Origin: Kineothrix sp. MB12-C1
GTDB taxonomy: Bacteria; Bacillota; Clostridia; Lachnospirales; Lachnospiraceae
Length of the DNA: 64,000 nt
Direction: 5' to 3'
Assembly (NCBI RefSeq): GCF_030863805.1
Contig: NZ_CP132957.1
Coordinates: 434,001-498,000, forward strand
The notes under the pieces: model-generated
What the model was told of the DNA's origin: nothing
Seen by the model: the letters and a program-made list of their open reading frames with translations, nothing else
Databases searched by the model: none
Part shown: piece by piece, positions 37,074 through 62,626 of the stretch
Layout of the letters: each line of letters begins with the position of its first letter
How positions within the stretch are numbered: the stretch's first letter is position 1
Position numbers and translations under genes: made by a program

Positions 37074-37334
37074 TTATATCAAGCTTTTTATCGTCAATAA
37101 ACTTTCAAATAACGTTACCAAACGGTAATCTTCACTTATTACCTCTTTTTTCACATCCGGGATTCCATATCGTGATATTTCTATATATTTATACAAGGTT
37201 CCGTTCTCTATACCATAATCTCTTAAGTTATCATCTATTAGCATTTGTAATCCGAGTTCTTCACACAAAGCTTGAAAAGCATCGTACTTATCTATACTTC
37301 CCTCTATTGTCGTTCTTATCTTTACCTTTGCCAT
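37074..37334 (-). CDS. Small protein in operon with the sigma-DUF262 gene
   Basis: An 86-aa alpha/beta protein (MAKVKIRTTIEGSIDKYDAF at the start), with no known family recognised. It lies 11 bases downstream of the sigma-DUF262 gene, so the two are cotranscribed from the SOS-boxed promoter. It could be an accessory or anti-sigma-like partner, which is a guess from position. Confidence 0.6.
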   Translation of the reverse strand: MAKVKIRTTIEGSIDKYDAFQALCEELGLQMLIDDNLRDYGIENGTLYKYIEISRYGIPDVKKEVISEDYRLVTLFESLLTIKSLI

Positions 37335-37345
37335 AATATCACCGC

Positions 37346-39259
37346 TTATTTACTTTCTTGTTTGATTTTCTGTGAATCAACGGTCATGTTATAATTTTTG
37401 TTATATTTATCTAAATAACTTTTTACATATGTATTGCTTTTCCTGGAAATATAAGCCTCTTCTTTTTTAATATCCTGCCTTTTCTTTTTCTTGACAAAAT
37501 CCTCTCCCACTTCTTCTTTGTTTGAAATATCAGAATCTTCCATATAGAAATATTCCTTCATAAGTTTCTCCAAATGATTGATTTTATTAATAACTACATT
37601 TTTATCCTTAGTTGATTTCCCATTTAAATCATCGAAGGAAATATCACCGATCCTTTTATTATGTAATGATCTGGCAAATTCAGTCATAAATTCGATGAAT
37701 TTTATATCTTCTAGCCCTATCTTAGCAAATCTTGCAAATAATCCAAACCAAATAAAGGAATCCTTAGAATCGAACATATTAAATATCTCTTCTGTTCCTA
37801 TTCGGGTAAGCCTTTCAATGACATCCTCGAATTCATCGAAGTTTTCCGTCGTTGCATTTTCTTTTATATATTCGCACATATCCTCCTGTTTCTTCTTCCA
37901 ATCATGAAGAAAGTTAGAAGCCATTACACTTTCTACAACAACGCGGTTTATCGTTCCGTTGTTCCCCTCCGACACTTTATATCCGCCCAGATCCTTGAAA
38001 AATGGCATACCGGAAATGCTTTTCACCATGGAAGCGAACTCCTCCCCTAATCTGGTCATACCTTTTTGAGATACGGTCATTGGCTTCCCTTCGTTATATC
38101 TTGCGATATGATAAGCAATATCATCGCCGGAACAATTTAAATATTGAACAATTTCAAAGTTATACTCATTGAATTTATCTTGTAATTCTTCCGGCAAGTC
38201 CGAAAACTTCTTTCCCCTAATGTCGCATTCCCTTTTTTCGCTTTGAGGAAATCCTTTTTCATCTAAAATAGGAATTCCTTTTTCATTTTTAAGCTGTGCC
38301 TGATATACGATATTCCATCTTCTAATATTCTTAGATATTTTATAGCTTCCCTTAACGAATGAATGGGCATTGGTGCAACGCTGTTTGCCATCCAAATCCC
38401 AAATAATAGCAAGTCCGTTTACAATTTGTTCTGCAAGTACAATCGCCGGAATTGGATTGCCCTGTAAAATATCCGAAATGAGATTCCCTTTCATCGCGGG
38501 ACTCCATTGTTCCGACTCCCTTTGAAGAGGATGATCGAATCGGAGTGTATAATTGTCAATCTTCTTAATAATAGATGATATGCTCAGCCTATCTGCCTTA
38601 CTTTTCTCCAAAGTTTGTGTTAAAATCTCTTGCATTTTTTTATTCCCCCTATAGTTTGAATCGCTTGTTATATCGTTACCTCTAAATAAAACTTGTGTAT
38701 TACGGAATGATTTCATCTGACTGCAATGGCCTTCATATTGCTTATCCGATAGCTTTAGCCTTTCTTTTATAGTTTTGACAGGTATTTCATCCATTTTCAT
38801 TTCCACAATTTTTCTTTGTACCTTTGATAAATTACTAAGATACGCTTCTATCTTCTCATCACATGGAATTTCAGCCTTTTCCAATACCTCTTTTTCAACA
38901 TTGATATCGGAGGCCAACGTATCACTAATTGTCACATTTTCCTCTTCTCCGATGGGAGTATCCATAGATAAAGAAAGCCTGTCCGCCTTACGCTTTTCTC
39001 TATTAAGACCTGTCATTATTGTGTCGAACTTGTTATTGAGACAAAACTTAAGATAACTTTCAAATGGAACACCTTTGGACTCATCAAACTCCTCCGTTGC
39101 TTTCCATAATTCTTCGTTAGCCTTGCTATAAAAATCATCATAATCCTTTTGAAATATTCCCCCGAATTTAATAAATAACGAATACGAAACTTTTCTAAGC
39201 TTTGCCATATCATTCGAACAATACTCTTCTAACACTTGTCGCCTTTGCAACGAATTCAC
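37346..39259 (-). CDS. Sigma-70-like / DUF262 fusion protein
   Basis: A 637-aa protein. Residues ~15-85 resemble sigma region 2 (DDFYSKANEELWKATEEFDE with SYLKFCLNNKF and a basic NREKRKADR). Residues ~130-185 look like region 4 (LSKVQRKIVEMKMDEIPVKT and an HTH-like LSDKQYEGH). From ~210 a DUF262 domain begins; its motif IWDLDGKQRCTNAHSF corresponds to the family D-G-Q-Q-R, and long helices follow to ~600. DUF262 is a ParB/GmrSD-N fold that can hydrolyse NTP. The start is GTG six bases after GGAGGTG. It is divergent from the polymerase gene, so a promoter-specificity or switch role is likely but unproven. Confidence 0.75.
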   Translation of the reverse strand: MNSLQRRQVLEEYCSNDMAKLRKVSYSLFIKFGGIFQKDYDDFYSKANEELWKATEEFDESKGVPFESYLKFCLNNKFDTIMTGLNREKRKADRLSLSMDTPIGEEENVTISDTLASDINVEKEVLEKAEIPCDEKIEAYLSNLSKVQRKIVEMKMDEIPVKTIKERLKLSDKQYEGHCSQMKSFRNTQVLFRGNDITSDSNYRGNKKMQEILTQTLEKSKADRLSISSIIKKIDNYTLRFDHPLQRESEQWSPAMKGNLISDILQGNPIPAIVLAEQIVNGLAIIWDLDGKQRCTNAHSFVKGSYKISKNIRRWNIVYQAQLKNEKGIPILDEKGFPQSEKRECDIRGKKFSDLPEELQDKFNEYNFEIVQYLNCSGDDIAYHIARYNEGKPMTVSQKGMTRLGEEFASMVKSISGMPFFKDLGGYKVSEGNNGTINRVVVESVMASNFLHDWKKKQEDMCEYIKENATTENFDEFEDVIERLTRIGTEEIFNMFDSKDSFIWFGLFARFAKIGLEDIKFIEFMTEFARSLHNKRIGDISFDDLNGKSTKDKNVVINKINHLEKLMKEYFYMEDSDISNKEEVGEDFVKKKKRQDIKKEEAYISRKSNTYVKSYLDKYNKNYNMTVDSQKIKQESK

Positions 39260-39327
39260 TTTTGCCACCTCCATTTGAAATATACCAATACCATTTGAGG
39301 TAAGGGTTTATGCTTCCACTGTTTACA

Positions 39328-39356
39328 ATTATAATTCGAACATTAGTTCCTGTCAA
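39328..39356 (-). promoter_or_regulatory. Consensus promoter with LexA-type box in spacer
   Basis: On the minus strand TTGACA, 17 bases, TATAAT: a perfect sigma-A promoter for the sigma-DUF262 gene. The spacer contains CGAACATTAGTTCC (39337-39350), a GAAC-N4-GTTC palindrome like the Gram-positive SOS box (CGAACRNRYGTTYC). A bound LexA would block the promoter. Confidence 0.75.
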
Positions 39357-39365
39357 TGTAATTTT

Positions 39366-39379
39366 CGAACGAATGTTCT
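39366..39379. promoter_or_regulatory. Second LexA/SOS box
   Basis: CGAACGAATGTTCT fits the Gram-positive LexA consensus at all but the last base. It lies 29 bases (about three helical turns) from the first box, between the divergent transcription units, so it may control the polymerase operon too. A possible -10 (TTATAG) lies at 39391-39396. Confidence 0.7.
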
Positions 39380-39472
39380 TAATTTTGGTGTTATAGAAAA
39401 TCAAAAGGAGAATTACCTATTGCAACCATCCACTGGAATTTGAAATTGGCCTCGCCGAAAGGAGCAAAAATA

Positions 39473-39697
39473 ATGACTACTCATCTAACATCGAACAATT
39501 ATTTTTACAATAAGTTACATACTCACCCGATTAAAACGCGTGACGAGCTTCATAAGACCTATAGTGGCAGAATCTATACGAATGATTTTAGTGCTGATTA
39601 CAGAGGTAAGGATGAACGCAAAGGCTCCCCCATCGCTTCTCGCATTGCATCTGATTTTCGATGGGAAGAAAGCTTACGCAATAATTATGAAATCTAA
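39473..39697 (+). CDS. Small protein upstream of the polymerase
   Basis: A 74-aa hydrophilic protein (MTTHLTSNNYFYNKLHTHPI at the N-terminus), no recognised family. AAAGGAGC lies upstream of the ATG. It is the first plus-strand gene of the element, 17 bases before the RNA polymerase gene, so it should be cotranscribed. Confidence 0.6.
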   Translation: MTTHLTSNNYFYNKLHTHPIKTRDELHKTYSGRIYTNDFSADYRGKDERKGSPIASRIASDFRWEESLRNNYEI

Positions 39698-39714: not shown

Positions 39715-42555
39715 TTGAATCATACTGGAATCTATATACCATCGATCGATGCTAAGGATATTTATTTATCTTCCCACTTTCTCGAGAATAACCCGGATGG
39801 ATATAATTTGAAACTTAAAGACGGGCAATATAACTTACGGAAATTTACGAATACTTTTGATGACAGCCTGGACTTAATCGAGCTGTTACATATCTACTAT
39901 AAGAGATATAGACGGAATGACTTTTCCTTCAAAGTAAAAAAACATTTATATTCTGTCAGCGTAATTAATCTTACTTTCAAGTATTCCATTAAGGAATGGA
40001 ATCAGATGACTAGAAATACCTATGTGAAATTTGGTTATGATTATAGGAATCTGGTGTTCACCGATTGTATTGCACAAAATAAAGAAGGAGAAATCGTTGG
40101 AATTCAGATTGGTGAAAAGGTAGAAACTCCGATAGACAAACAAAGAATACCTCCCTACTTCTCTTCCATCACTGTTGAAATCCGTGATAAGAAGGACACG
40201 GAAAGAATTATAAATGTACAGACCCAATATCAAAAGGAAAAAGAACCTAAAGTGCTAAAAACAAATGCACAATTGAGGAAAGAACTATACAAGGATGGCT
40301 TTGTCTGTAATGGGGTTAAATATTGCCGTCTAAAGAGATCTTCCGGATCGGCCCGTGTCGGTAAATGTCTGTTCATCAACGAACCATTATTCGAACCGAT
40401 GTTAAGATTCAGTTCCGGTTCCATCTCATTAAAGGAAGGAGAAGAAATCGATCTTGCCGCTTATGAATCTTATATATCCCTTCCTTCCAGTAGCATTATC
40501 GGCACACTTCCTATATCACCTGAAAATATTCTTCTAATCGACGATTATGAAAGCATATTTCGAGAAGACGTCATCGCCACTCATGACGAGGACGGATGGC
40601 TGACAACGACGGAAAGAAATTGTGAGATCTCTAATAATATATGGGACGGACAATCTCTTCTGGATATTTCACTCTTTGGACATTATAAAGAATATGGAAT
40701 GGTTTTACTAAGAAACCTTATGTTCAAATCTTGTTGCTTCAATTGTAATATCCAACAATGGTTTAAAGATAATCATATTACTGATATTTCACAATTAAAC
40801 GGGAAAACAAGGGCCAAACGAATCGAAGATGTGAAATTAATTACTACCCCAAGCAGCATTAAATATTTGAAATTCGATACATTGGATAACTGGCTGGATC
40901 ATCTCTATCCTAATTTCGGCGTTGTTAAGCACGATAAGAAAACTCACTTTTTCGGCGGCCGGCTAGTACAGACCCATTACCAGCTTATTAATACTCTGCA
41001 AATGACAAAAGATGAGGTAAGAGAGTTTCTGCAAGATTCCCTGGAATTTGCCCAAATTCTTAAAAGCAACCCGGAAGTTGTAAGGTATTTTATTAAGTAT
41101 CCTGATATTGATACGATGACTCCTTTATCACATCCGATGACAAATAAAAATGCCGTCATATATAACTTGATGTGTATCAATGATGATTTCACCCACACGA
41201 AATATTATCAGGAGTTCCTAATCGACCTATTAAAAGCATTCTATAAAAATTTAAAGAATGGTCACGTATATGTAAACGGCAACTACTCCACTCTTCTGGG
41301 CAATCCTATGGAAATGCTGCAACAGACTATCGGAAGGTTCCATGGAGAAAGTCAGATTGGTAAAGGAAATATACATAGCAAAAGGTTTCACTATAATAAA
41401 ACACTAATCGCCTCCCGTTCCCCACACGTAACCATCGGAAATATATGGCTTCCATATAATACGGAAAACAAATTGATCGATCGCTATTTTAATCTTACAA
41501 ACGAAATTATAGCAATCAATTCCATCGGTGAGAATGTATTACAGCGATTATCAGGTGCTGACTTCGATAGTGACAGCGTGATGCTAAGCGATAATGAGAT
41601 ACTTATCCGAGCTGCCAAGAGAAATTATGATACTTTTAAAATACCGACCTCTTTTGTCTCTGCCAAAAAGGTCAAGAGATATTACACGCCGGAAGAACAG
41701 GCTGACCTGGATATTAAAACATCCGTAAATAAAATTGGAGAAATTATCAATTTATCTCAAGAACTCAATTCTTTATTGTGGGATAAAATGTACCATGGCT
41801 CTGTTTATGAAGATATCAGGGAATTGTACTATGATATCTGCCAATTAGATGTTATGTCAGGACTTGAAATCGATAAAGCAAAAAAGGAATTCGACATCGA
41901 TAACTCCAAAGAACTGGATAAGATTCGTGCAAAATACAAGGATATCCTTACCGATGAAGATGACAGAAAGAGGATGCCTCACTTTTTCTCCCATATAGCG
42001 AGGCAGAAGGGATATTACAACCCCGATAAAAAAAACTACTGTAAATATGATACTTCCATGGATTATTTGCAGACAATCATCAATGGATTCCGAATTAAAA
42101 ATCCTTATAAAAAGGATTGGCTGCCATTTGTATCTATTTTGAATCATCGCTTATTCAGGACTTCCGGCGTAAATCAGAAACAAATTGACAAGCTTTATAC
42201 CCAGCTAAGGAAATATATAAGTGAGAAAAAGAATATCTATGCCTCTGATTCTGACAATGATGAAAAACGTGAGAAATCACAACTTCTATATACAAACCTG
42301 GTATCCGAGATAGAAAGTGAAATAATTGGTTTCTCTACCTTATATAAGCTGTTGAGTTCCTTGGAGGATAAAGAGAATTCCCAAGTAAAGAATACACTCT
42401 TACAGATATTGTATCTATGCGGCAACGAAAGTTTCAAAAAAGCGATTCTACAGTCAACATCCGAAATCAAACAACTGGAGGAGGACGGAAATGATATAAA
42501 GTTATATGGAATCGGATATCGAATTACAAAAAAGAAGGTCAATTCGGAAATTTAA
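39715..42555 (+). CDS. Single-chain RNA polymerase, YonO/RdRp-like
   Basis: A 946-aa protein. The segment LQRLSGADFDSDSVMLSD (about 609-626) carries the DxDxD metal triad of the second double-psi beta-barrel (NADFDGD in cellular beta', DbDGD in eukaryotic RdRps). About 45 residues earlier SRSPHVTIGNIW matches the RNP-C-HPGDI-type block of QDE-1/YonO relatives. In the first barrel, KRSSGSARVGKCLF resembles the SSSQLREKG(A/C)(W/Y)F motif. In SPbeta, YonO is a single-subunit DNA-dependent RNA polymerase that transcribes phage genes. TTG start, seven bases after AGGAGGG. An HU-like gene follows, then tail genes. Confidence 0.8.
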   Translation: MNHTGIYIPSIDAKDIYLSSHFLENNPDGYNLKLKDGQYNLRKFTNTFDDSLDLIELLHIYYKRYRRNDFSFKVKKHLYSVSVINLTFKYSIKEWNQMTRNTYVKFGYDYRNLVFTDCIAQNKEGEIVGIQIGEKVETPIDKQRIPPYFSSITVEIRDKKDTERIINVQTQYQKEKEPKVLKTNAQLRKELYKDGFVCNGVKYCRLKRSSGSARVGKCLFINEPLFEPMLRFSSGSISLKEGEEIDLAAYESYISLPSSSIIGTLPISPENILLIDDYESIFREDVIATHDEDGWLTTTERNCEISNNIWDGQSLLDISLFGHYKEYGMVLLRNLMFKSCCFNCNIQQWFKDNHITDISQLNGKTRAKRIEDVKLITTPSSIKYLKFDTLDNWLDHLYPNFGVVKHDKKTHFFGGRLVQTHYQLINTLQMTKDEVREFLQDSLEFAQILKSNPEVVRYFIKYPDIDTMTPLSHPMTNKNAVIYNLMCINDDFTHTKYYQEFLIDLLKAFYKNLKNGHVYVNGNYSTLLGNPMEMLQQTIGRFHGESQIGKGNIHSKRFHYNKTLIASRSPHVTIGNIWLPYNTENKLIDRYFNLTNEIIAINSIGENVLQRLSGADFDSDSVMLSDNEILIRAAKRNYDTFKIPTSFVSAKKVKRYYTPEEQADLDIKTSVNKIGEIINLSQELNSLLWDKMYHGSVYEDIRELYYDICQLDVMSGLEIDKAKKEFDIDNSKELDKIRAKYKDILTDEDDRKRMPHFFSHIARQKGYYNPDKKNYCKYDTSMDYLQTIINGFRIKNPYKKDWLPFVSILNHRLFRTSGVNQKQIDKLYTQLRKYISEKKNIYASDSDNDEKREKSQLLYTNLVSEIESEIIGFSTLYKLLSSLEDKENSQVKNTLLQILYLCGNESFKKAILQSTSEIKQLEEDGNDIKLYGIGYRITKKKVNSEI

Positions 42556-42623: not shown

Positions 42624-42965
42624 TTGGAATCAAAAAAATGTTACAATCAAAAATATTATACTCAAAAATATGTTATAGAGGAAATTCACAAAAAAACAGG
42701 TTACTCCATACGTGAAATCACTATTATCTTAAATTCCCTGCGCAACGTGGTAAAAGATAAATTCAGCGACCGGGACAATCATGTGGAGATAAAAATTTTT
42801 CCCGGGCTAAAAGTGACTTCCAAACATGTTCCTTGTGAGCAATCAAATCTAAATCTATGTACATCCGGAGCGATTACCTCCGAATATCTACTATATTTAA
42901 ACGGTGAATTCAGCGGCCGGTTCAAAAATGAAATAAGAAACCATCATACCTACATGATATCTTAG
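42624..42965 (+). CDS. HU/IHF-like DNA-binding protein
   Basis: A 113-aa protein whose first ~85 residues follow the HU pattern: YVIEEIHKKTGYSIREITII, a helix turn, then LNSLRNVVKDKFSDRDNHVEIKI and FPGLKVTSKHVP in place of GFGTFEVRER. The DNA-binding arm is weakly conserved. TTG start after GGAAGGAG. In SPbeta an HU homologue (YonN) also accompanies the YonO polymerase, which supports a role in late transcription or DNA organisation. Confidence 0.65.
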   Translation: MESKKCYNQKYYTQKYVIEEIHKKTGYSIREITIILNSLRNVVKDKFSDRDNHVEIKIFPGLKVTSKHVPCEQSNLNLCTSGAITSEYLLYLNGEFSGRFKNEIRNHHTYMIS

Positions 42966-43091: not shown

Positions 43092-43841
43092 TTGGAAAGC
43101 TTAATTAATAATGAACTTCAAATATATAGAGGAAAAGATTTCATCATTAAAGAAGGGATTATTATCTCCCAGCCTACATTAGATGAAATCTGTAACTACG
43201 GGGAAAGAGAATATTTCCAGCTCATACATACTTTCACTTCCACTCCGGCAGATTTAAAGTGGCAATTGGACGAATCCGGAATCGATTATACCCAAATAAG
43301 TGATTTTGAATTATTTTACCATATGACATATCGAATGTTCACGAAGGAAATGACATCGATTATATTCGGAGATTTAGATTGGTCGAAGTTTCAGCGTTAT
43401 AGCCAAGCGCAAGATGACAGTGAGAAGTTAATTCTATATCATCCCGATGACAATATCGTAGTGGATGAATTCACATATCTTCTTATTACTGAAGTCCTAC
43501 GGAAAATACACGGACTGAAACGCAACAATCAGTTGCCGGGAAATGAAACGACGAAACGCATCCTAATTGAAGATGCAAAAGAAGAATATCTTGCTAATAA
43601 AAATAGAGAATATCGCTCTCAATTAAAAAATTTAATCTCTGCTATGATAAATAGTGAAGGGTTTAAATATAACCACTCTGAGGTTTGGAACATGAAAATC
43701 AATGCTTTTATGGATTCTGTCCAACGAATCAGCAAGATTCAAAATGCGAACCTATTGCTACAGAGTGGATATTCAGGCTATGGAATCAGCCTGAAAGATG
43801 TAGACAAACAACAATTAAACTGGCTGGGAGATCTTGAATAA
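43092..43841 (+). CDS. Possible tail assembly chaperone
   Basis: A 249-aa soluble helical protein. The C-terminal third (MINSEGFKYNHSEVWNMKIN, then FMDSVQRI, ending KQQLNWLGDLE) has the feel of phage tail assembly chaperones (Gp15-like), but the match is weak. TTG start after AAGGAGGG. Chaperones normally lie between tail tube and tape measure; here it precedes the tube gene. Confidence 0.4.
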   Translation: MESLINNELQIYRGKDFIIKEGIIISQPTLDEICNYGEREYFQLIHTFTSTPADLKWQLDESGIDYTQISDFELFYHMTYRMFTKEMTSIIFGDLDWSKFQRYSQAQDDSEKLILYHPDDNIVVDEFTYLLITEVLRKIHGLKRNNQLPGNETTKRILIEDAKEEYLANKNREYRSQLKNLISAMINSEGFKYNHSEVWNMKINAFMDSVQRISKIQNANLLLQSGYSGYGISLKDVDKQQLNWLGDLE

Positions 43842-43882: not shown

Positions 43883-44677
43883 ATGTTTAATCCTAATGAA
43901 GTAATTCTTGAAAAAATCAGAGCGGTTGAGGAGTATGACCCGGAAACAAATGAGATTACCGGCAGATACACTCAGATTGAAAGTCCAGCCTTACAGACAA
44001 CAGCCAACGGCGTTACTGTAACAGATTCAATGGGTGCAGAAATCGCAACCTTCTACAATGCTCAGACAGGTACTTTTAGCTTTACGAATAGCGTACATTC
44101 CCTCGACCTTATGGCAAGCCAGTTCGGTTCAGAGAAAGAAATCGCAGAAGATGATAAGAAGCTTATTATGCCTGTATCCGAAATGATTACCATCGGCTCC
44201 GACCACACTGCAGTCTTGAAATATGTACCTGTGGGTACAGAAGGCGCAGAAGTAAAATATGTAAAACTGATTAACGAAAACAATGAATTCGGTAAGACAT
44301 ACGAAGTATCCGCTACAGCCGGCGAAGGAAAGTTCACAATCGATGCAGCTACAAGAACTATTACAATGCCTGATGACGTAACAGGAAAGATTTTCGTAAG
44401 ATACGAAAAAGAAACATCTACTGCTGTAAAGGTCAGCAAGAGAACCGATAGCGTGCCTAAGGTAAAATCTCTATTGATCCACGCTATTTTCCATAACAAA
44501 TGTAATGTGAACACGGTATATTCCGGCGTTATCTCCGTATCCAGAGCACAGATTGACCCTACTACTGTGGATGTCAATCTCACACCGGACGGAAAGCATT
44601 CCGCATCTTATAAGTTGCAGAAAAACTACTGCGATGAGGATGGTAAGCTGTTCGACATCATCATTAGCGAAGACTAA
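43883..44677 (+). CDS. Probable major tail tube protein
   Basis: A 264-aa beta-rich protein. The C-terminal motif LTPDGKHSASYKLQKNYCDE then GKLFDIIISED resembles the end of tail tube subunits of long-tailed phages. A central insertion (about 110-180; GTEGAEVKYVKLINENNEFG) looks like an Ig-type domain, which would decorate the tube. AAAGGAG lies upstream. It could instead be another structural protein, but it has no capsid (HK97) signature. Confidence 0.55.
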   Translation: MFNPNEVILEKIRAVEEYDPETNEITGRYTQIESPALQTTANGVTVTDSMGAEIATFYNAQTGTFSFTNSVHSLDLMASQFGSEKEIAEDDKKLIMPVSEMITIGSDHTAVLKYVPVGTEGAEVKYVKLINENNEFGKTYEVSATAGEGKFTIDAATRTITMPDDVTGKIFVRYEKETSTAVKVSKRTDSVPKVKSLLIHAIFHNKCNVNTVYSGVISVSRAQIDPTTVDVNLTPDGKHSASYKLQKNYCDEDGKLFDIIISED

Positions 44678-45854: not shown

Positions 45855-46295
45855 ATGGTTATTACTATAAATATGGAATTCAATGAAATGATCAACAATG
45901 TATTATATACGATTCTAACTGCGATTCTGCCGGTGGCAGCCTATTATATCGTAAGCCTGACGAAAGCTAAAATCAACGAGAGTACCATTATAGAAGAATC
46001 GGTAAAAAATGAGATTATAAGTAATATGATTAAAGATGCCCTATCGGATGTGACGGACGCCGTCCTTCATGTAAATCAAACTTATGTCGATTCGCTGAAA
46101 GCTTCCGGCAAATTCGATAATGCTGCTCAGAATGAAGCATTCCTCAAAGCATATACAGAGGCCATCATGCTAATCTCAGCCGGAACGCAAGAAATAATTG
46201 AAAAAGTATACGGTTCCTTCGACGAATGGCTCAAATCGAAAATCGAAACTTCCGTGAAGAAAGCGAAAACAATGTCAGAAAAGCAAAGCATGTAA
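45855..46295 (+). CDS. Holin-like protein (LLH type)
   Basis: A 146-aa protein with one N-terminal membrane helix (about 15-32; VLYTILTAILPVAAYYIV) and a long charged amphipathic C-terminal part (KNEIISNMIKDALSDVTDAV). This is the layout of phage holins of the LL-H family. Start choice is open: ATG 45855 almost abuts the GGGAAAGG site, and ATG 45870 (MEFNEM) gives better spacing. No endolysin gene is seen beside it in the window. Confidence 0.6.
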   Translation: MVITINMEFNEMINNVLYTILTAILPVAAYYIVSLTKAKINESTIIEESVKNEIISNMIKDALSDVTDAVLHVNQTYVDSLKASGKFDNAAQNEAFLKAYTEAIMLISAGTQEIIEKVYGSFDEWLKSKIETSVKKAKTMSEKQSM

Positions 46296-51228: not shown

Positions 51229-54200
51229 TTATTGGAAGCAATTAAATGGATTTATCTCAATGTGCTCGCAAGCTACGAGAAAAAAAATGGATTGAGTGGG
51301 GCATCAACTCCTATTAAAAATTTACACGAGATACACCCTTTAACGGATGACATCAAAGGCTCTTTAAGTAAAATTTTTGGTAATGATAAATTCAACCTTG
51401 ATGATTATATTGATAATTTTGATTTTTTAGCAAAAATCGTTGGCCAAACAGACACGGCATTTATTAGTTTTCTTGAAACAACCCAAAAATCAGGTACGCT
51501 CTATAAAACATCAGGAGAAGCAATTGCTGGCTTTCAAGCATACCTTAAATCAACATCAAATGCACTCTCACATACAAGCCTGAAAACCAAGGCGCTTTCA
51601 GCTTCTATGCAACTCCTCTCTTCTATTGGCATGACGGCTCTCATCACTGGAATTACATGGGCTTTCGGTGAAGGTATCAAGGCAATAAGTAATTACATCC
51701 ACCGGGTCGAACTGGCACAACAAGTAATGAAAGAACTAAACAGTGAGTTCAATGAAACTCAACAACGTATAAGCTCACATAAGCAACTGGTTAATGAAGT
51801 AGCTAAATCCTTTGATGAGTTGTCAAAAGGTGTAGACACTGCTACTAATAAGAATATAGATTTATCAACAGAGGAATATGAAAAGTTTCTTACTATAAGT
51901 AATAGACTTGCCGATGCTTTTCCCGAATTAAAAACAGGCTTGGATGAAAACGGTAACTCTATTTTAAACATTGGAAGAAATGGTAAAATAGCAAGTGAAG
52001 AATTAGAGAATTTACTTGCGCGAGAAGAAGATTTGGCGAACTTTAAGGCATCTGAAAGTATTGATGAATTATTCGATGCCGCTAAAACTCAGATTGTTGA
52101 TGCGAATACAAAATTAGAACAATATAATCAAACGTTGAAAGATAATGAAGCTTCCCTGCAAATGCTAAAGAATCTTGCAAATGATGGCATAAAAATAGAT
52201 GAGAATGCCACTGGTCCTATATTCTCCGGCAAAAATAGCGAAGCAGATATTGCATACCTAAATGCATTAACTCTAGGAGCACAAAACTTCTATAAAGAGC
52301 TTAACGGTGATAGACGCACTGAACTATATTCCTTAGGTTTTGACGCTTCAAGTTTATTCAGAGCAGAATATGATTTAGATGGAAATTTTGAGATATATCA
52401 AGACTTATTTCAACTATCTCCAGGTGAAATAAAATCACTGCAGGAGCAGATCGATACTCAGATACAGGCAATTTACGGACCCGTTGATGATTCTATAGAT
52501 GCACAATCTCAAAAGGCCAATGAAATGTCTAACCGAATAAACGGTATATGGTCTGATTTTCTTCCAAGTTTAGTTTCTGCAATGAAGTCAAAGCAGACTT
52601 TCAAAAATCTAGATGAAAATACAAAAAACATTGCCCTTAGGATAGTTGAAGGATTAGACTCTAGCTATATGGAATCTATGAATGCTTATGATCCTAACGA
52701 CCCTTACGCATACATCAGAGATAAATTTATATTGCCAATGGGAGAACTTGACGACGCCGATAAAGGCAAATTAGTTCAAGCATTTGAAAAGATATTTACC
52801 TTAGATTATAATGATATTTCGCAATCTAACCAAGATGAAATTACCAGATTAATTGATATTATAGCAGAAATGCTGAATAAATCACCGTTAGAACTTCGCG
52901 TGGCTTTAGGCTATGATACAGATATCACACAAGTTCAGGAAAACTATAAAAAATCTTTGGATGAGGCGAAAAAAGATTTTAGTGGTTATGACATAAAATA
53001 TAATGGTTCCCAGAAGGAATCCAGAAATAATGAACTTGGGAACCAGATAGACAGCTTTTACGGGAAAAATATCAAAACCCAAGATGATTTAGATTTATGG
53101 GAAGAGTTAAAAGAACAAATAAAGGATGCCGAGAAATTGATGGTGGCATTCACTGAAGCTAAGAAAAAAGCTAATGAAGAATCCAATGAAAATCAAATAT
53201 TATCCATCTCCAATACAATAGATTTACTTAATACTCAACTCAAACCTACCTTTGATTCATTGAAATCTGCATACAACACTATTTTCACAGAAGATGGCTT
53301 TACACTAGAGAAGGTAGACCTATCGATGCTCGATTCAATAAAAGCTTCCATAGGAGAATTAGACAAAATCGAGGGAATAGATATTGATCCCTCCTCGTTT
53401 GAACACTTGGCTAAAGTTCTTTCAGATTCCTCTTCCACCCCAGAAGAAGTTAAGCAAGCATTCAATGAATTAGCAACTACCGTAACAAATTCATTAAATC
53501 CTAGTTTATCACAAGCAAGTGGAGAACAGTATCTACTTATTCAGTCTATGCTTGAGTCTCTTGGTATCGTGAATAGCGAAGAAGTCATGATAGAAAAGCT
53601 TGGTTATTCTTATGAAGAATATATTGCTGCAAAAAAAGAAGCTGCTCAAGCAGGATTTGACTTGGCGAATTCTACCGAAGAAGATATTTCACAATTTGTA
53701 ATGGAACAGATTGAAGCGGGAAACTGTGGAGAAGCATTGGCTGTTCTTCAGCTAAAGAAGTTGCTTGTAAATTCTACACAAATTAATGCGACTTCTGATA
53801 TTCAACAAATCCTTCTTTTGGCAAAAGCAGCAAATATCTCTTCATCATCTCTTGTTTCTCTTTCTAATGCAAAAAACCAATTTGATTTAGCCGCCTCCAT
53901 TGGTGATAAGCAAGGTATGTCTCTTGCTGCAAGGGGTATTAAAGAAGCAGGTGAAAAGTTTAAAGAGGAAGTATTAAATCTTGGGGAACTAGACGTTAAC
54001 TTTAATGGTAGTGGTGGCTCTGCTGGCAAGGCAGGGAAAGAAGCCGCCGATGCCTATCTCGAAGCTTTTGAAAAAGAGCTTTCTGAACTCGACTCCCTAA
54101 AAGATCGGGGTAAAATCACAGAGAAGCAATATCTTGACGCCCTCAGACATTTATATGTGAAATATTTCAACCAGAAGAAGAAATATTTAGATCAGTATGA

Positions 54201-56619
54201 GAAATACGAAGACCAATATCTGAGTGGAATGAAATCACTCTATGAGTCCGCTTTCAGCTACATCACAAAGCAAATTGATAAACGAATCGATGCCATCCAA
54301 AAAGAACGCGATGCACAAGTCGAAAGTCTGGAAGCACAAAAGAAGGCCGCTGAAGAATTCTATCAGAATCAAATCGATGCCATTGAAGATGAGATAAAAG
54401 GCGTAGATAAAGAGATTGAGGCCAAGCAGGCACTTATCGAGGCGATCAATGATGCTGCCGATGCCCGCCAGAGAGAAATAGACCTTCAAAAAGCGCAATA
54501 TGATTTGGAACGTATGCAGAACCAGAAAACCATAAGCGTATATAAAGATGGTCAAATGGTTCACGAAGCGAATACATCCGGCATACGAGAAGCTCGCGAG
54601 GAAGTCGAAGATAAAAAGCGGGATATCGAAATCGCTACTATCCAGGAAGTTATCGATGGACTAGAAAAACAGAAGAATATTCTTGAAGAACGTAGGGAAA
54701 CACTCGAAGAAGCATTAGAAGCTTCAAATAAATATTGGGATGTACAGATAGAACAAACCGAAAAGCACTTCGATAACCTGATAAAAGGTATGGAGGAGTA
54801 TAAATCTCGTTGGGAAGAACTTTCCGAAATCGCCGAGGAAGCCAAAATGAAGGTTCTCCTTGAAGAACTCGGTATTTCTGAATCTGATATTCTTAACATG
54901 AGTGAAGAAGCTTTCCAGAATGTTAAAGCATCCTATTTAGGTATCCTTACCGATATGTATCACGGCAACGAACAGATGATGGGGCAACTATCCTTGTTTG
55001 CAGGAATGAACACAGAAACTCTAGGTTACCTGGATTCTACCAAGGACGCATTTGGAGAACTTGCAGACACACCTTTAGACCCTCTTTCTTCTAATATAAA
55101 TGATATTGTTTCTTCTGTATCTTCGCTTTCTGACTCTACCTCTAATATCGGAACAGATGTGTCTGAAGGCCTCTCTCCTTTAAATGATACTTTAGCAACG
55201 TTAAAGGATTTATTGGATGAACTAACAGAACTCTTTAACGATTTTACATTTCCCACTCCCGAAGAAGAAGATTATGCCGAGAAACTAGTTGCTATCAGCG
55301 AGGGGTTCGGAAAGATAGCAGAAAAATGTAAAGAATTTGAATCCATTGACTTCTCTTCTATTATCGGCTCTAGCAACGAAGATTCACAAGATACCGTCGA
55401 TGAAGGAGCTCTCACTGCCGATTCCGGATTTATCGGTTTAGCTTCTGCTATATCAACCGCCGTTGCAGCAATTGATGGTCAGATGAGTGCATTAGCTACT
55501 GCACTCCAAACTGGCAATACTGCTTTCTCCAATCAAGTGGATTATATAAACGATACCTACATTCCTGCATGGGAAAATTTGCAAACCAGACTCGGTGAAA
55601 TTATTGGAGTAAGTGGTAAAAGCAGAAAACATGGCAGTGGAGGACGTTCAAGAGGCGGCGACGATAATGCTGCAACTTCTTCCGATAATAAGGATAAAGC
55701 TACTGCTGGCGAAGGAAGTATCATCGATATTATACAGACCGGCGGAGAAGAGGTATACGAGAAACTACAAGACCCTTGGTTGACTTCTTTTAATGATTTT
55801 GCTACCGGTGAAAATTCCATTCAGAGTATCGCTGAACTTATTCAAGAAATTGTAACTAAAATGGCGGATTCTATACAGAAGAGATGTGAAGAGGCCGCAA
55901 GTGCAATTGATAATTTGACGCAAAAGGCCCTGGATGCTTCAAGTAAATTTGGAATAAACTTTGACGCATCTATTTCTATTGATAAAGATGGATTTCACGG
56001 TTCTCTTCGCATTGGAGAACACGGTACAGTAGGCAGTGCCTTCTCTAATGGTACTACAGGTTCCAATAATATTAAACATCTCCCAATAACCGGGTACAAA
56101 GGACTCTCCCACAACACAAAGAATGCTCTGCGTTCCGAATATGGACAACCGGAGTTAACTGTTTACCCTGATGGAACTGCCGAGATAACCACCGAACCTG
56201 TTATGAGCGATCTGCCGAAAGGTACTGTTATATTTAACGAAGAACAGACCGAGCAAATCATGAATAATAAGGGCACTCTCCTTGGCAACATTCATGATAA
56301 CGATACTGGTTATCCATCTCACCTGACTCCTATCGATTTATCGGATGACAGATTTTCCATGTTTCAGGGACTCCGGAAATATATGGATGGCAGCACTAAC
56401 TCTCTTGCTCTTGTAAACGCTGGTATAAATCCGTTTACAGGAATTGCAGATTCTATCACCGATGTAGACCGAATAATAAATAGTAATAAGAATGACAGAG
56501 CTATCGCAATTAATATAGGAGATATTCAATTGCAGGGAGTTCAGGATGTGAATGGATTATCCGATGCGATTATTACCCGACTTCCGAATATGCTTGTGCA
56601 AGAACTCCATAGGCTATAG
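51229..56619 (+). CDS. Tape measure protein, main part
   Basis: About 1,796 codons. The frame opens right after a stop at 51226-51228 without a ribosome binding site; TTG at 51232 is the first possible start. Hydrophobic segments (SSIGMTALITGITWAFGEGI) and long coiled coils (about 990-1230; KQIDKRIDAIQKERDAQVES, EEVEDKKRDIEIA) are typical of tape measures, which set tail length and are ejected into the host. C-terminal LPKGTVIFNEEQTEQIMNN resembles the usual tape-measure end. With the first fragment the protein would be about 2,000 aa, implying a tail near 300 nm if the usual ~1.5 angstrom per residue applies. Confidence 0.8.
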   Translation, partial: LLEAIKWIYLNVLASYEKKNGLSGASTPIKNLHEIHPLTDDIKGSLSKIFGNDKFNLDDYIDNFDFLAKIVGQTDTAFISFLETTQKSGTLYKTSGEAIAGFQAYLKSTSNALSHTSLKTKALSASMQLLSSIGMTALITGITWAFGEGIKAISNYIHRVELAQQVMKELNSEFNETQQRISSHKQLVNEVAKSFDELSKGVDTATNKNIDLSTEEYEKFLTISNRLADAFPELKTGLDENGNSILNIGRNGKIASEELENLLAREEDLANFKASESIDELFDAAKTQIVDANTKLEQYNQTLKDNEASLQMLKNLANDGIKIDENATGPIFSGKNSEADIAYLNALTLGAQNFYKELNGDRRTELYSLGFDASSLFRAEYDLDGNFEIYQDLFQLSPGEIKSLQEQIDTQIQAIYGPVDDSIDAQSQKANEMSNRINGIWSDFLPSLVSAMKSKQTFKNLDENTKNIALRIVEGLDSSYMESMNAYDPNDPYAYIRDKFILPMGELDDADKGKLVQAFEKIFTLDYNDISQSNQDEITRLIDIIAEMLNKSPLELRVALGYDTDITQVQENYKKSLDEAKKDFSGYDIKYNGSQKESRNNELGNQIDSFYGKNIKTQDDLDLWEELKEQIKDAEKLMVAFTEAKKKANEESNENQILSISNTIDLLNTQLKPTFDSLKSAYNTIFTEDGFTLEKVDLSMLDSIKASIGELDKIEGIDIDPSSFEHLAKVLSDSSSTPEEVKQAFNELATTVTNSLNPSLSQASGEQYLLIQSMLESLGIVNSEEVMIEKLGYSYEEYIAAKKEAAQAGFDLANSTEEDISQFVMEQIEAGNCGEALAVLQLKKLLVNSTQINATSDIQQILLLAKAANISSSSLVSLSNAKNQFDLAASIGDKQGMSLAARGIKEAGEKFKEEVLNLGELDVNFNGSGGSAGKAGKEAADAYLEAFEKELSELDSLKDRGKITEKQYLDALRHLYVKYFNQKKKYLDQYEKYEDQYLSGMKSLYESAFSYITKQIDKRIDAIQKERDAQVESLEAQKKAAEEFYQNQIDAIEDEIKGVDKEIEAKQALIEAINDAADARQREIDLQKAQYDLERMQNQKTISVYKDGQMVHEANTSGIREAREEVEDKKRDIEIATIQEVIDGLEKQKNILEERRETLEEALEASNKYWDVQIEQTEKHFDNLIKGMEEYKSRWEELSEIAEEAKMKVLLEELGISESDILNMSEEAFQNVKASYLGILTDMYHGNEQMMGQLSLFAGMNTETLGYLDSTKDAFGELADTPLDPLSSNINDIVSSVSSLSDSTSNIGTDVSEGLSPLNDTLATLKDLLDELTELFNDFTFPTPEEEDYAEKLVAISEGFGKIAEKCKEFESIDFSSIIGSSNEDSQDTVDEGALTADSGFIGLASAISTAVAAIDGQMSALATALQTGNTAFSNQVDYINDTYIPAWENLQTRLGEIIGVSGKSRKHGSGGRSRGGDDNAATSSDNKDKATAGEGSIIDIIQTGGEEVYEKLQDPWLTSFNDFATGENSIQSIAELIQEIVTKMADSIQKRCEEAASAIDNLTQKALDASSKFGINFDASISIDKDGFHGSLRIGEHGTVGSAFSNGTTGSNNIKHLPITGYKGLSHNTKNALRSEYGQPELTVYPDGTAEITTEPVMSDLPKGTVIFNEEQTEQIMNNKGTLLGNIHDNDTGYPSHLTPIDLSDDRFSMFQGLRKYMDGSTNSLALVNAGINPFTGIADSITDVDRIINSNKNDRAIAINIGDIQLQGVQDVNGLSDAIITRLPNMLVQELHRL

Positions 56620-58261: not shown

Positions 58262-59185
58262 ATGTTTTTTCTAGGAAATAATATTCTGGGCGCGGACTGT
58301 CATACGATTCCTCTTACACCCACATCGGTCAAAAACATGACTTATATCGTATTGAAAAATGGCTTATTTGATTGTCTATATATTACGAAAGAAACAGAAT
58401 CCGATCCTACGATGGACTGTCCGAAAGAATGGAATTTCGATACAATTTTTCATGCCGATTTCAACAATACTACTTCCGGCGGTAACGTGGATTGGAATCT
58501 TAAAACGGTATCCCATGTTTTAATAAAGCGTAGGGATAGTGAGCATAATTGGATGACAATTGCCGTCAAGAAAATAAACAGCCTGGAAGATTTCAGAACC
58601 GGCATTATAGCAAACGACTATTTTAATGCAAGCAATACACAGTATGAATATGCCTTGCTTTCCACACTATACGGTACAGAGAGCGAATATTATACTGCTT
58701 TTGCCGATTCAAAGTTCGATTCTATCTTCTTCGCTGAGAAAAATAATATTATCGGCTCTCCTGCCGGCGATGGCTTCTGTGATACCGCAAGAGTCTTCCC
58801 TTCTTCATCCAACGTAACGATTTTAAATAAATATCCCACATATATCCGCAACACAAAGGCGAATTACGATAAGGGCACCTTCCGGGGAAAATTCATGTCT
58901 CTCGACGAGGAAACATGTACCTTCGAAATGGAAAACGGGGAACGCATCCGATTCCAGAGAAAGGTTACAGACTTTCTTTCCGATGGAATGCCCAAGCTTC
59001 TAAAACATTTCGACGGAAGAATATGGCTCATTCAAATTACAGGCGATATTTCGGATACAGCGGATTCTATCTATAATAATAGAGATATTTCCTTTGAATG
59101 GGTGGAAATTGGCAACTGCTTCTCCGAAGAACATTTATATAAAGCGAATCTATCCGATGTCGCTGAAGAATGGTGGAATTTATGA
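58262..59185 (+). CDS. Distal tail/baseplate protein
   Basis: A 307-aa protein (MFFLGNNILGADCHTIPLTP at the start), without recognised domain, followed by a hub-like gene it overlaps by four bases. The C-terminal half has alternating strands (GRIWLIQITGDISDTADS, then DISFEWVEIG) as in distal tail proteins. Role assigned from position and composition. Confidence 0.55.
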   Translation: MFFLGNNILGADCHTIPLTPTSVKNMTYIVLKNGLFDCLYITKETESDPTMDCPKEWNFDTIFHADFNNTTSGGNVDWNLKTVSHVLIKRRDSEHNWMTIAVKKINSLEDFRTGIIANDYFNASNTQYEYALLSTLYGTESEYYTAFADSKFDSIFFAEKNNIIGSPAGDGFCDTARVFPSSSNVTILNKYPTYIRNTKANYDKGTFRGKFMSLDEETCTFEMENGERIRFQRKVTDFLSDGMPKLLKHFDGRIWLIQITGDISDTADSIYNNRDISFEWVEIGNCFSEEHLYKANLSDVAEEWWNL

Positions 59186-60936
59186 TAACTAAATATGACT
59201 TAGATTTAATGACTCAGCTTTCCATTCATTATAATATTAAAATAGAAATATTAAAAGAAAACGGAACTATTTTGGATGTCCTGCAAGGTACTATTGTGGG
59301 CGGTTCTGCTTCCATTGACAGCACCTCTTCCGTTCGAAGGACTTTCTCTGTTACATTGATTCCCACATTATTTGACCGTAACGATACTAAGATATCGGAA
59401 GAAGGCGTAGTCTGGATCAATAAAGAACTACGCCTGTATCTTGGCGTACTAGACTTAAGAAAACAAGAATATATCTATTATTCTATGGGACATTATGTCT
59501 ATACCAATACATCCGGTAATTACGATGCCACTACGAATCAGCTCGTTATCAATTGCAATGACTATATTTCCAAATTGGATGGAACCAAAAACGGACAATT
59601 GGGAGCTCTTACTACTCGCATACCAGCCTATGAAGAGAATCCAAACACAGGAGCCGTTATAAAATATAACGTAATTCGTGAAGCGATGGTCACTGTTTTA
59701 ACGCAACTCGGCTATATTAGGAATTATGTGGTAGACGATATCGGTGAATATAAGGCCATGCCGCAAAATAATGACAAATGGCAGGACTATAGAAAAGAAA
59801 ATACTCTATGGAATGCTATTCCATACGATTTAGAGTTTTCATCCGGAATCTCTGTTCTTACCATTTTGGAAAAGCTTCGTGACCTATATCCCAATTATGA
59901 AATGTTTTTCGATACACAAAACACCTTTATCTGTCAAATGATTCCAAGTTGCTATAGAGACAATATAGTGTTTTCAAATGAATTCCTCAAATCTATTTAT
60001 GTTTCTGAAAATACAAGCACAGAATTAAATAAAGTAAGAAATATCTGCGAAGTATGGGGAAAAGTGATTGATGCCGATTTCTACACAGAAAATTGTACAT
60101 ACGCTAACAACCTCTACACATGTACGATAAACGGCTATGATGAAAAATACTATAATGGTGATATTGTGGCAATTAAGATTCCATCCGCCAATAGTGCAGA
60201 TGCTAAAATAAATATTAACGGATTGGGAGCCATCAGCATCATGGACGAAAACACAGATACTGCCATTAAGAGCAACGCCTTGGAAAAGGGCGTTGTTTTC
60301 GTCTTCAAAATAAAATCCAAGAGGATAAATAATACAACTGTATTTTATGCGTATTTACTCGGTCATTGGCAGGCCCACGGCTTAAACGTTCTCACCGACG
60401 GAACAATCGGTGACAATTATAAATTCTCTGATGGAACTACTTTGAAAAAGTATTCCAAGGAATATTTCCAGAAAAAATATAATTGCGAAAGTATAGAGTT
60501 TCAGACAATACAGAACTCTCCTTTCACTGTACAAAAAATCGGTGAAATATTAGACGTAAAAACCGGCGGTGAATACGAAAATATCACCTCCGACTCTCTC
60601 GCCCTCTCCCGTGCCGAATGGGAAAATTGGAAAAATGCAAGATTAACTGACAGCATCACCTTAACAACAAATCTCGTTCCCTTTTATGATGTCAATATAA
60701 AGGTGTCCTATCAAACATCTGATTCTGACAGAGCAGAACAATATATTATCAAATCGGTCAGCCATGATTTCTCTTCCTGGACATCAACGATTACCATGTA
60801 TAAATTCTATCCTTTATATGATGATATTGTAAAAGAAATGGGAACACACAAGGCATTATCCGAATATAAACACGGGGTGTTAAGTAAATATACCCACAAA
60901 GAATTAGAACAATTAATTGGAGGTGAAAACTATTAA
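59182..60936 (+). CDS. Tail hub protein with inserted fibre domain
   Basis: A 584-aa protein. Residues ~1-290 resemble prophage tail endopeptidase/hub N-termini (RTFSVTLIPTLFDRNDTKIS, then WINKELRLYLGVLD and the FDTQNTFICQMIP block), and the C-terminus (SDRAEQYIIKSVSHDFSSWT) returns to the hub fold. Residues ~310-420 are a tail-fibre-type insertion (ANSADAKININGLGAISIMD). The ATG at 59182 overlaps the upstream stop (ATGA) with GGTGG ahead; the ATG 12 bases earlier is less likely. Confidence 0.65.
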   Translation: MITKYDLDLMTQLSIHYNIKIEILKENGTILDVLQGTIVGGSASIDSTSSVRRTFSVTLIPTLFDRNDTKISEEGVVWINKELRLYLGVLDLRKQEYIYYSMGHYVYTNTSGNYDATTNQLVINCNDYISKLDGTKNGQLGALTTRIPAYEENPNTGAVIKYNVIREAMVTVLTQLGYIRNYVVDDIGEYKAMPQNNDKWQDYRKENTLWNAIPYDLEFSSGISVLTILEKLRDLYPNYEMFFDTQNTFICQMIPSCYRDNIVFSNEFLKSIYVSENTSTELNKVRNICEVWGKVIDADFYTENCTYANNLYTCTINGYDEKYYNGDIVAIKIPSANSADAKININGLGAISIMDENTDTAIKSNALEKGVVFVFKIKSKRINNTTVFYAYLLGHWQAHGLNVLTDGTIGDNYKFSDGTTLKKYSKEYFQKKYNCESIEFQTIQNSPFTVQKIGEILDVKTGGEYENITSDSLALSRAEWENWKNARLTDSITLTTNLVPFYDVNIKVSYQTSDSDRAEQYIIKSVSHDFSSWTSTITMYKFYPLYDDIVKEMGTHKALSEYKHGVLSKYTHKELEQLIGGENY

Positions 60937-62626
60937 TCTAACAACGAACTTAAAACTACAAAAGCCAACAAGTGATGAAAAATATAATGTTCAGACGCAA
61001 AACACCAACATGGATATATTAGATTCGTCCATTAAATCTTTACAAGATAAAGATGCTACTCTAACGAAACAAACAGATTTTACATTACACACAAGCAGCA
61101 AAAACAATCCTCATAACGTTACAAAAGAGCAATTGGGACTTAGTAATCTCATTAACCAAAGGCAGATACCTGCTATCCAGTCTACCGTGACAGATGGCGG
61201 CATTCCCATTTTCGATAGCAATGGATATACACTGAAAGACAGCGGATATACAATTGGGAAATCCGTACCAGAAGATGCTGAGTTTACTGATACACTCTAT
61301 GTTCATCCCGAAAGTGGTGTAGATATAGGCGAATATACCAGGGTATCCGTGGACTCAAACGGACATGTGACTTATGGTAGCAATCCCACAACTTTAGAAG
61401 AATATGGAATCACTGATGCCGCTCCTATCGATCACTCTCATACTGCTGAGGAAATTGGTGCAGATGTTGCAGGCAGCGCCGATAACGCACTGAATCAGGC
61501 AAAAGAATATACTGATTTAAAGGTAGCAGGACAGCATGGGGAAAATGCATTTAAAAAACAGATTGTGGAATCACTTCCTATTGAAGATATTGATACAAAT
61601 ACCATTTATCTTGTATTAAAGCCGGATGCGATTGGGAATGACAATTACAATGAATATATTAATCTCGATGGAACTGCCGATGGATATGAATGGATTGGGA
61701 ATACATTTGTTGATTTAACGGATTATTATAATAAGATAGAAAGTAACAATCTATTCTTATTAAAAGCAAATGTTACAAATAATCTTAACACCACGGTACC
61801 GGGAATGGCCCTTGATGCAACACAGGGTATGATATTAGCCGACATGATTACCGAAAGTGATACTAGAAATACCATTCACCGGATTCCTGTATCAGCTGGA
61901 AAATCTGTAAAGCTTGTGGAATTTATGTTAAGTGAAAGTGAGAGGCAATCTGTGACAATAAGCGTGCGTGGAATGCATTCTCCGGGAACTGCAACAGTTT
62001 GGATGGATTTTGGATATGGGTATGTTTTAGGATCCTCTGTAGAAGTATCTGACCAATATTACATTCCTAGATTGCAAATTAGAAAAAATTACATAACAAA
62101 CAATTTTGAATTATGGATTGTAAATCACATAGACGCCGCTGTATTGAATGATATTATTATTATTGATAACATTTCTATGGGAGAGTATTCTGGAATATTA
62201 ACAGCAACAGTTTCAGATGGTTCTGAAACTGATACAACAATTTCAGGGACTACTCGGATATTTATTGCCTCTGCATATATTCCTCAACTTCAGAGCTACG
62301 AACATAAATCAGTTCCGAAAGTTATTGATGGAAACATTACTATTCCTAATGAATGGTCTTCTAAATACGGACATTTGGTTATTGCCGTATTTTATTCTTA
62401 TTCAAGCACAAGCTATATCGCAACATATATAATAGGATTTTCTCAATTTAGTCCATATACTGTTTCAAAAGCCCCAATACTCCTTAATGCCGATGGAATT
62501 GTACTTAGTACTGTTGTTGTAAACCTGATGATGGAAAATCATACTTCGGAAATATCTTTGGCATATTCCCATTATCCTACAACTGCTGGGCTAACCATAT
62601 CTGATGTTACGGCACACCCTATGTAA
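60932..62626 (+). CDS. Tail fibre/receptor-binding protein
   Basis: A 564-aa fibre-like protein. The N-terminal part has LHTSSKNNPHNVTKEQLGL, the short repeat common in fibres (THNVTKAQVGLG), then LYVHPESGVDIGEY, SVDSNGHVTYG and a second repeat-like HSHTAEEIGAD. The C-terminal half (about 300-564) is beta-rich and probably binds the host. GGAGGTG is followed six bases later by ATT in frame, overlapping the previous stop; if this non-AUG start is wrong, TTG at 60917 is the alternative, but it lies before the ribosome binding site. Confidence 0.7.
   Translation: MNLTTNLKLQKPTSDEKYNVQTQNTNMDILDSSIKSLQDKDATLTKQTDFTLHTSSKNNPHNVTKEQLGLSNLINQRQIPAIQSTVTDGGIPIFDSNGYTLKDSGYTIGKSVPEDAEFTDTLYVHPESGVDIGEYTRVSVDSNGHVTYGSNPTTLEEYGITDAAPIDHSHTAEEIGADVAGSADNALNQAKEYTDLKVAGQHGENAFKKQIVESLPIEDIDTNTIYLVLKPDAIGNDNYNEYINLDGTADGYEWIGNTFVDLTDYYNKIESNNLFLLKANVTNNLNTTVPGMALDATQGMILADMITESDTRNTIHRIPVSAGKSVKLVEFMLSESERQSVTISVRGMHSPGTATVWMDFGYGYVLGSSVEVSDQYYIPRLQIRKNYITNNFELWIVNHIDAAVLNDIIIIDNISMGEYSGILTATVSDGSETDTTISGTTRIFIASAYIPQLQSYEHKSVPKVIDGNITIPNEWSSKYGHLVIAVFYSYSSTSYIATYIIGFSQFSPYTVSKAPILLNADGIVLSTVVVNLMMENHTSEISLAYSHYPTTAGLTISDVTAHPM

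Follow-up and report, generated by a model that had tools for sequence, protein, structure and literature searches.

Fusion of a Sigma Factor-Like Module with a DUF262 Domain

A minus-strand gene in the 64,000-nucleotide stretch of Kineothrix sp. MB12-C1 DNA analyzed here (the window) raises the question of what a sigma-70-like module does when it is joined to a DUF262 domain and placed divergently beside a single-chain RNA polymerase. DUF262 is described in passages of PMC10952713 as typical of defence proteins. The sigma-DUF262 gene (37346..39259, minus strand) encodes 637 aa from a GTG at 39259, or 642 aa from an ATG at 39274.

The sigma part (38675..39259, minus strand) contains a sigma-2 domain, a sigma-3.2 finger-like segment (SMDTPIGEEENVTISDTLASD, residues 103-123) and a sigma-4 domain with its helix-turn-helix; no sigma-3 domain was aligned in it. 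Comparison of the predicted structure, resting on VIA-align results only, assigned a sigma-2/sigma-4 fold and a sigma-finger motif to residues 2-202, and the finger matches that of SigA. The linker behind it has a pLDDT below 50 in the model. Residues 225-577 form a DUF262 fold resembling the front of BrxU. They comprise the DUF262 (ParB/Srx-like) domain itself (residues 225-398; 38081..38602, minus strand), with a GmrSD_N match (PF03235) of 39.3 bits, above the cut-off, and a helical part (37544..38080, minus strand) that matches BrxU to about BrxU residue 416-422. The DGKQR motif (residues 295-299; 38378..38392, minus strand) was followed across 34 aligned rows, where D, G, Q and R occur in 34/34 and K in 33/34.

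A sigma-70-like module and DUF262 in one chain had been read from motifs in the initial annotation. The domain matches and the fold comparison, including the sigma-2/sigma-4 fold obtained for the N-terminal half, establish a real fusion and rule out a chance reading of motifs. A DUF262 restriction enzyme of the GmrSD/BrxU type IV kind is likewise ruled out, as the DUF1524 HNH nuclease gave no match in the 642 aa (Pfam, E ≤ 1). Directly 3′ of the gene lies an 86-aa ORF (window 37074-37334, minus strand) with no relatives among the fetched loci.

Fused and Split Loci and a Predicted Internal Start

Relatives were found in 8 loci in viral contigs, in 38 in genome contigs and, further, in the whole genomes of relatives. 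Removal of repeats and near-copies (e.g., L055 = L003, L066 = L008, L071 = L009 and L037 = L007; L060/L062 near L061, L065 near L064) left 47 distinct sigma-bearing loci, namely 38 fused ORFs, the window included, and nine split pairs. The near-copies L049 and L053 were both retained, as was L088, which is broken inside DUF262; L080, without a sigma end, was uncounted, and L087, with its polymerase ~5 kb off, was taken as not adjacent.

The gene order in the split pairs is sigma first, then DUF262. In L041 and L047, ..RNVSVLF-stop closes the sigma gene, and DUF262 begins no more than ~40 nt further on, preceded by a Shine-Dalgarno sequence. The gap is longer in L042, L079 and L081, where it holds a small ORF (between 12300 and 13240 in L042, L079:10605-10795 and L081:10615-10805); those of L079 and L081 resemble each other. 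On the DUF262 tree of 46 rows, the fused state spans most of the tree, while the split label (nine rows) needs five changes, at least three of them forced by well-supported branches.

Other arrangements were also observed. L074:9983-12691 has ~200 extra repeat-like residues between sigma and DUF262, the frame still being open, and in Clostridium symbiosum ATCC 14940 the broken gene appears as two overlapping ORFs (L088:3602-5259). Stand-alone extra DUF262 genes, more distant from the fused ones, are present at L051:5833-7044, L079:14611-15690, L080:3685-4764, L081:14585-15742 and L050:21004-22008.

An in-frame ATG (M214; 38633..38635, minus strand) behind a Shine-Dalgarno-like AGGGGG (38645..38650, minus strand; anti-Shine-Dalgarno energy -9.3 kcal/mol) is proposed to start a free DUF262 protein of 429 aa (37346-38635). 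A Met at the DUF262 start is shared by 32/34 aligned rows, inside an otherwise little-conserved linker. The junction carries an in-frame ATG with an exact Shine-Dalgarno sequence (at least 5 bases) in 37/38 fused ORFs, compared with 49/605 background ATGs of the same ORFs, and the sole miss is the window's own AGGGGG, with one mismatch. Pairing at the junction, taken as the best among the ATGs there and slightly biased in its favour, is stronger than the background 5th percentile in 38/38, the window included; of the 604 background ATGs, only 1.3% reach the strength of the window's junction. Because the junction ATGs carry this strong pairing, the gene probably yields two products, sigma-DUF262 and free DUF262. 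The fusion reading thus stands as one open chain but was incomplete. An internal ribosome site is also used in cas8/cas11, where a single ORF yields the long protein as well as a separate C-terminal part; those proteins are unrelated to sigma-DUF262, for which the internal start is only predicted.

The Neighbouring Polymerase and Its Co-Occurrence with Sigma-DUF262

On the opposite strand, a 75-aa protein (39473..39697, plus strand; 13 hits in 10 distinct loci) precedes a YonO/QDE-1-type single-chain RNA polymerase (39715..42555, plus strand) with DFDSD at residues 616-620, which is followed by an HU-like DNA-binding protein (42624..42965, plus strand), below the Pfam cut-off. The polymerase has the two-barrel fold with DxDxD, and a polymerase HMM built in this analysis recovers YonO, confirming the divergent single-chain enzyme of the initial annotation and placing it in the YonO/QDE-1 type. 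The order of small protein, polymerase and HU-like protein, the last in the place of yonN, is that of yonP-yonO-yonN in SPbeta. SPbeta differs in being a full phage with terminase and portal, and the 127 of its 134 kb that were searched hold no sigma or DUF262 relative.

A divergent neighbour polymerase, with a gap of up to ~2.3 kb, was found in 25/47 loci (neighbour-type loci). A distance of 20-45 kb mostly separates the two genes in SPbeta-like phages, and 7/8 phage-type records contain the polymerase. Where it is not beside sigma-DUF262 or lies a few kb off, it was present in 16 of the 18 genomes or records searched, with distances derived from match positions and contig ranges. In 10 of these 18, it is divergent on the same contig, 5-45 kb off; in G148, G150 and MT835469.1, a divergent order, at 21-39 kb, results only when the record ends are joined. 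In G155, the two genes share contig and orientation, in G156, 160 kb separate them, and in G152, they are on different contigs; no polymerase was found in G154 or in G149 (73 kb, partial).

An even sample of 200 genomes from the family had the polymerase in 7/8 sigma-DUF262 genomes vs. 9/192 others (Fisher p 4e-8). Sigma-DUF262 therefore goes with the YonO-like polymerase. In those seven genomes, both genes are on the same contig and divergent, with a distance of up to ~1.3 kb in five, 4.6 kb in one and 44.5 kb in another; G079, the eighth genome, is a fragment. The neighbour counts and this co-occurrence rule out a random spread without the polymerase. The expectation that homologues stand beside YonO-like polymerases holds as strong co-occurrence, but adjacent divergent genes are limited to the 25/47 loci. 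Conversely, sigma-DUF262 is missing from 9/16 polymerase-bearing genomes, and from the searched part of SPbeta, and is therefore not a general polymerase subunit. A second sigma-DUF262 copy occurs in G259, and its contig gave no polymerase; the scan covering 184 kb of the own genome recovered only the window's copy.

An SOS-Type Promoter and a Conserved Block between the Divergent Genes

The sigma-DUF262 gene is preceded by a TTGACA-N17-TATAAT promoter (39328..39356, minus strand), a perfect sigma-A match. One LexA-type box overlaps it (39337..39350, strand unassigned) and a second one lies at 39366..39379 (strand unassigned). Promoters were counted in 46/47 loci, with the G009 locus (L007/L037), among the 38 fused ORFs, left out. 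In the 400 nt preceding sigma, 25/25 neighbour-type loci carry a sigma-A promoter of at least 11/12 and 22/25 an exact GAACN4GTTC box, nine of which have two; the 21 other loci have the promoter in three cases and the exact box in two. The resampled sequences of the neighbour-type group gave 0.2% (promoter) and 0.6% (box); these controls, like those for the motif and block counts, are first-order Markov sequences, not exact dinucleotide shuffles. The SOS-type promoter described initially is thus present and recurs across the neighbour-type loci, where sigma-DUF262 is apparently SOS-controlled, as predicted from the LexA-type boxes. In these compact loci, the combination of sigma-A promoter and LexA-type boxes therefore makes sigma-DUF262 the first gene on the SOS side.

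The polymerase side carries a conserved block, CAAAAGGAGAATTACCTATTGC (39402..39423, plus strand), which is proposed as a sigma-DUF262-dependent promoter of the polymerase operon. Its core, AAAAAGAGAA-N-TA, is often present on this side. Upstream of the polymerase ORF, the 420 nt scanned contain no sigma-A promoter of at least 11/12 in 24/24 loci (L066 reaches 10/12); other genes precede the polymerase in some loci, and the operon start may lie further upstream than this. The regions beyond the sigma promoter are also without such a promoter in 24/25 cases, the exception being L083. A de novo motif search in 24 regions, with the LexA-type boxes masked, returned aAAAAaGAGAA.tA with a score of 88.4, compared with 44-56 in eight resampled sets. 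This search is evidence independent of the block matrix, which was hand-made from 17 sites of the same regions and finds the block at 13 bits or more in 16/25 regions, a partly circular count.

Over the 184 kb of own genome covered by the block scan, the window's block, at 26.0 bits, is the single copy at 20 bits or more, and no regulon was seen. The runner-up, L116:12511 with 19.2 bits, falls within an ORF and was dismissed as a chance hit. Low-scoring hits carry no meaning: the window holds 13 hits of at least 11 bits vs. 3.0 in resampled sequence, most of them outside the element. A -35-like GG ~20 nt before the block is weak (G in 9/16 sites at each of two columns), and no clear -35 partner was seen.

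The polymerases preceded by the block are mostly only 14-25% identical to the window's. In 12 large-phage loci, 14 block hits of at least 16 bits were found vs. 3.2 expected; 7/14 are intergenic, including L003:9822 and L005:9874, which lie shortly before sigma-DUF262. Before the remote polymerases of large phages, the block reaches P 0.01 or less in 3/12 scored upstream regions (L096, L099 and L104), nine further loci, five of them polymerases unpaired with sigma-DUF262, being outside this scoring; the block there is therefore not tied to the polymerase start. At six polymerase loci without sigma-DUF262, a small set, no block of at least 15 bits was found upstream in polymerase orientation. 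From these counts, which are small, we read the block as following sigma-DUF262 more than the polymerase.

An Apparently Headless Tail Cluster

The genes after the HU-like protein belong to a tail operon. A phrog_4051 protein (43092..43841, plus strand) is followed by a 264-aa protein (43883..44677, plus strand), possibly the tail-tube protein judging by its position, a holin (45855..46295, plus strand; phrog_13712, 2.9e-29), a tape-measure-like protein (51232..56619, plus strand; phrog_4211, 1.5e-11), a tail protein (59170..60936, plus strand; phrog_1887, DUF5048) and a tail-fibre-like protein (60917..62626, plus strand). An endolysin lies beyond the window, after the tail-fibre-like gene (L113:749-2365). 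Terminase, portal, capsid and integrase were not found among the scanned proteins, of which the 264-, 846- and 403-aa proteins have no assignment. The 846-aa protein (window 46678-49218, plus strand), between holin and tape measure, has a PHROG match at E 0.33 only and none at 0.01 in Pfam or NCBIfam.

The G015 locus is alike (10 proteins scanned), with phrog_4051, endolysin, tape measure, Dit and minor tail proteins, and relatives of the window's tail operon follow the polymerase in further loci. Matches to PHROGs filed under head and packaging are given by one protein of the G015 locus (L039:4938-5720; phrog_2729) and, weakly and to a different PHROG, by the window's fibre-like protein. A search for the YonF-type terminase only was positive in 7/8 phage-type records (G146 and G150 weakly) vs. 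0/21 neighbour-arrangement genomes, the genomes of L064, L067, L072 and L083 being left out of the 25 neighbour-type loci.

The neighbour-type loci appear to be headless tail clusters. By its genes, the element is tailocin-like, with induction predicted from the LexA-type boxes; it is apparently a gut bacterial cluster for a phage-tail-like particle triggered by DNA damage. The own genome also contains a second YonO-like polymerase (L115:12441-15350, at ~550-553 kb) and, at ~541-548 kb (L115:3538-9570), another tape measure that is a close relative of the window's.

Proposed Role of Sigma-DUF262

We propose that sigma-DUF262 serves as the immediate-early switch in an apparently headless tail cluster that is related to SPbeta and under SOS control, with its sigma part acting on the host core polymerase, and give this reading an even chance of being correct. 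Upon DNA damage, LexA would leave the sigma-DUF262 promoter, and the host sigma-A RNA polymerase would then make sigma-DUF262 and free DUF262. On the host core polymerase, the sigma part would read the AAAAAGAGAA-N-TA block and fire the polymerase-tail operon, after which the YonO-class polymerase would continue or amplify late transcription. DUF262 would be an NTP-dependent module that times sigma activity by changing its oligomer state, as in BrxU, and free DUF262 would fill mixed complexes.

According to passages of PMC10952713, BrxU dimers become monomers upon NTP binding, and the nuclease of SspE receives its signal from NTP hydrolysis by DUF262. Because the nuclease is absent here and sigma stands in front of DUF262, we infer an NTP-set oligomer switch on the sigma factor, which would be the simplest transfer of this mechanism. 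The NTP-driven switch of the initial annotation would draw on the conserved DGKQR motif and on the behaviour of DUF262 elsewhere.

Sigma-DUF262 could instead be the promoter-specificity subunit of the YonO-class polymerase, bringing it to the AAAAAGAGAA block and to late promoters, a reading we consider unlikely but worth retaining. The strong co-occurrence (7/8 vs. 9/192 genomes) and the mostly divergent order, even at 20-45 kb, speak for it. The core-facing places of sigma 2.2 also differ from SigA (DLIQEG vs. DFYSKA), on our assumption of which residues face the core. Over 34 pairs with a mean identity of 34% for sigma, 51% for DUF262 and 29% for the polymerase, the distances of sigma and polymerase show a weak correlation (Mantel r 0.12, p 0.018) that could reflect contact; those of DUF262 and polymerase show no clear one (r 0.05, p 0.2), and those of the two domains of sigma-DUF262 correlate clearly (r 0.37, p 0.0005). 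The need of YonO for further factors is left open in passages of Forrest et al. 2017 (PMC5467207).

Four pairs of loci, however, have sigma parts 63-68% and DUF262 parts 82-88% alike beside polymerases only 17-20% identical; between the window and L002, the values are 68%, 82% and 18%. Docking on the polymerase should make a factor change along with that enzyme, whereas docking on the host core would not require this, and similar sigma-DUF262 proteins beside very different polymerases therefore favour the host enzyme. YonO-like enzymes are also described, in passages of PMC7824862, as having no flap insert, which binds sigma in cellular enzymes, and 9/16 polymerase-bearing genomes lack sigma-DUF262. 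The host core would thus be roughly twice as probable a partner as the YonO-class polymerase.

A further and rather improbable form would make sigma-DUF262 an NTP-gated initiation factor for the YonO-class polymerase. Fused and free DUF262 would pair in a mixed, ParB-like dimer, and its NTP cycle, or its recognition of a DNA mark, would load the sigma domains together with the polymerase on the AAAAAGAGAA promoter. If true, no earlier factor of the sigma type would precede sigma-DUF262 for two-barrel polymerases of the RNA-interference kind.

Self-activation, in which the polymerase alone reads the block and sigma-DUF262 acts elsewhere, for instance by lowering host transcription, would account for the sole strong block copy in 184 kb preceding the polymerase operon. 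It appears improbable, as the same block stands before polymerases of very different sequence, is not seen before the six polymerases without sigma-DUF262 and also occurs shortly before sigma-DUF262 in large phages.

There is little to recommend DUF262 as a defence or superinfection-exclusion module riding on the sigma gene, related to PADLOC NsnA and to GmrSD/BrxU. Residues 207-575 do match NsnA (7e-15), the domain is typical of defence proteins (passages of PMC10952713), and free DUF262 is probably made; yet the 642 aa gave no nuclease-domain match, 38 fused ORFs keep the two parts in one open frame, the sigma-DUF262 order is kept in the split loci, and DUF262 is tied to a transcription locus. 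An accidental fusion by loss of a stop codon between neighbouring genes, with no working fused product, is hardly credible: some split forms do stop just before the same Shine-Dalgarno sequence and ATG, and the unconserved linker has ~200 extra residues in L074, but the frame is kept open in 38/47 loci, and the fused state covers most of a tree on which the split state needs at least three changes.

Relation to Known Systems and Biological Meaning

The defective prophage PBSX of Bacillus subtilis makes tail-bearing killer particles; neither PBSX nor its factor Xpf is known to have a DUF262 domain or a private polymerase. Xpf also has sigma-2/sigma-4 and, compared by description, is the nearest functional likeness; PMC10141391 lists it as a positive control factor and associates it with PBSX and with DNA damage. 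With BrxU, GmrSD and SspE, the window protein shares the DUF262 fold, the helical part following it (BrxU residues 1-416) and the DG-x-QR motif. It differs from them in adding a sigma part in front and in having no match to the DUF1524 nuclease that they carry. Neither a sigma-DUF262 fusion nor a YonO-driven tailocin was found in the open-licence library searched, and by term count the word “sigma” is absent from the main text of the GmrSD family paper (PMC4619093).

Passages of the paper characterizing YonO (PMC5467207) leave open by what means the enzyme locates its promoter and whether host or phage factors are required. Sigma-DUF262 may be a missing factor that turns YonO-type polymerases on: a phage-type sigma that travels with YonO-like polymerases and has a defined SOS promoter, a 22-base candidate target and a predicted second product. 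The locus further points to tail clusters of gut Lachnospiraceae that are run by their own polymerase, and to a use in transcription control of DUF262, a domain known from defence.
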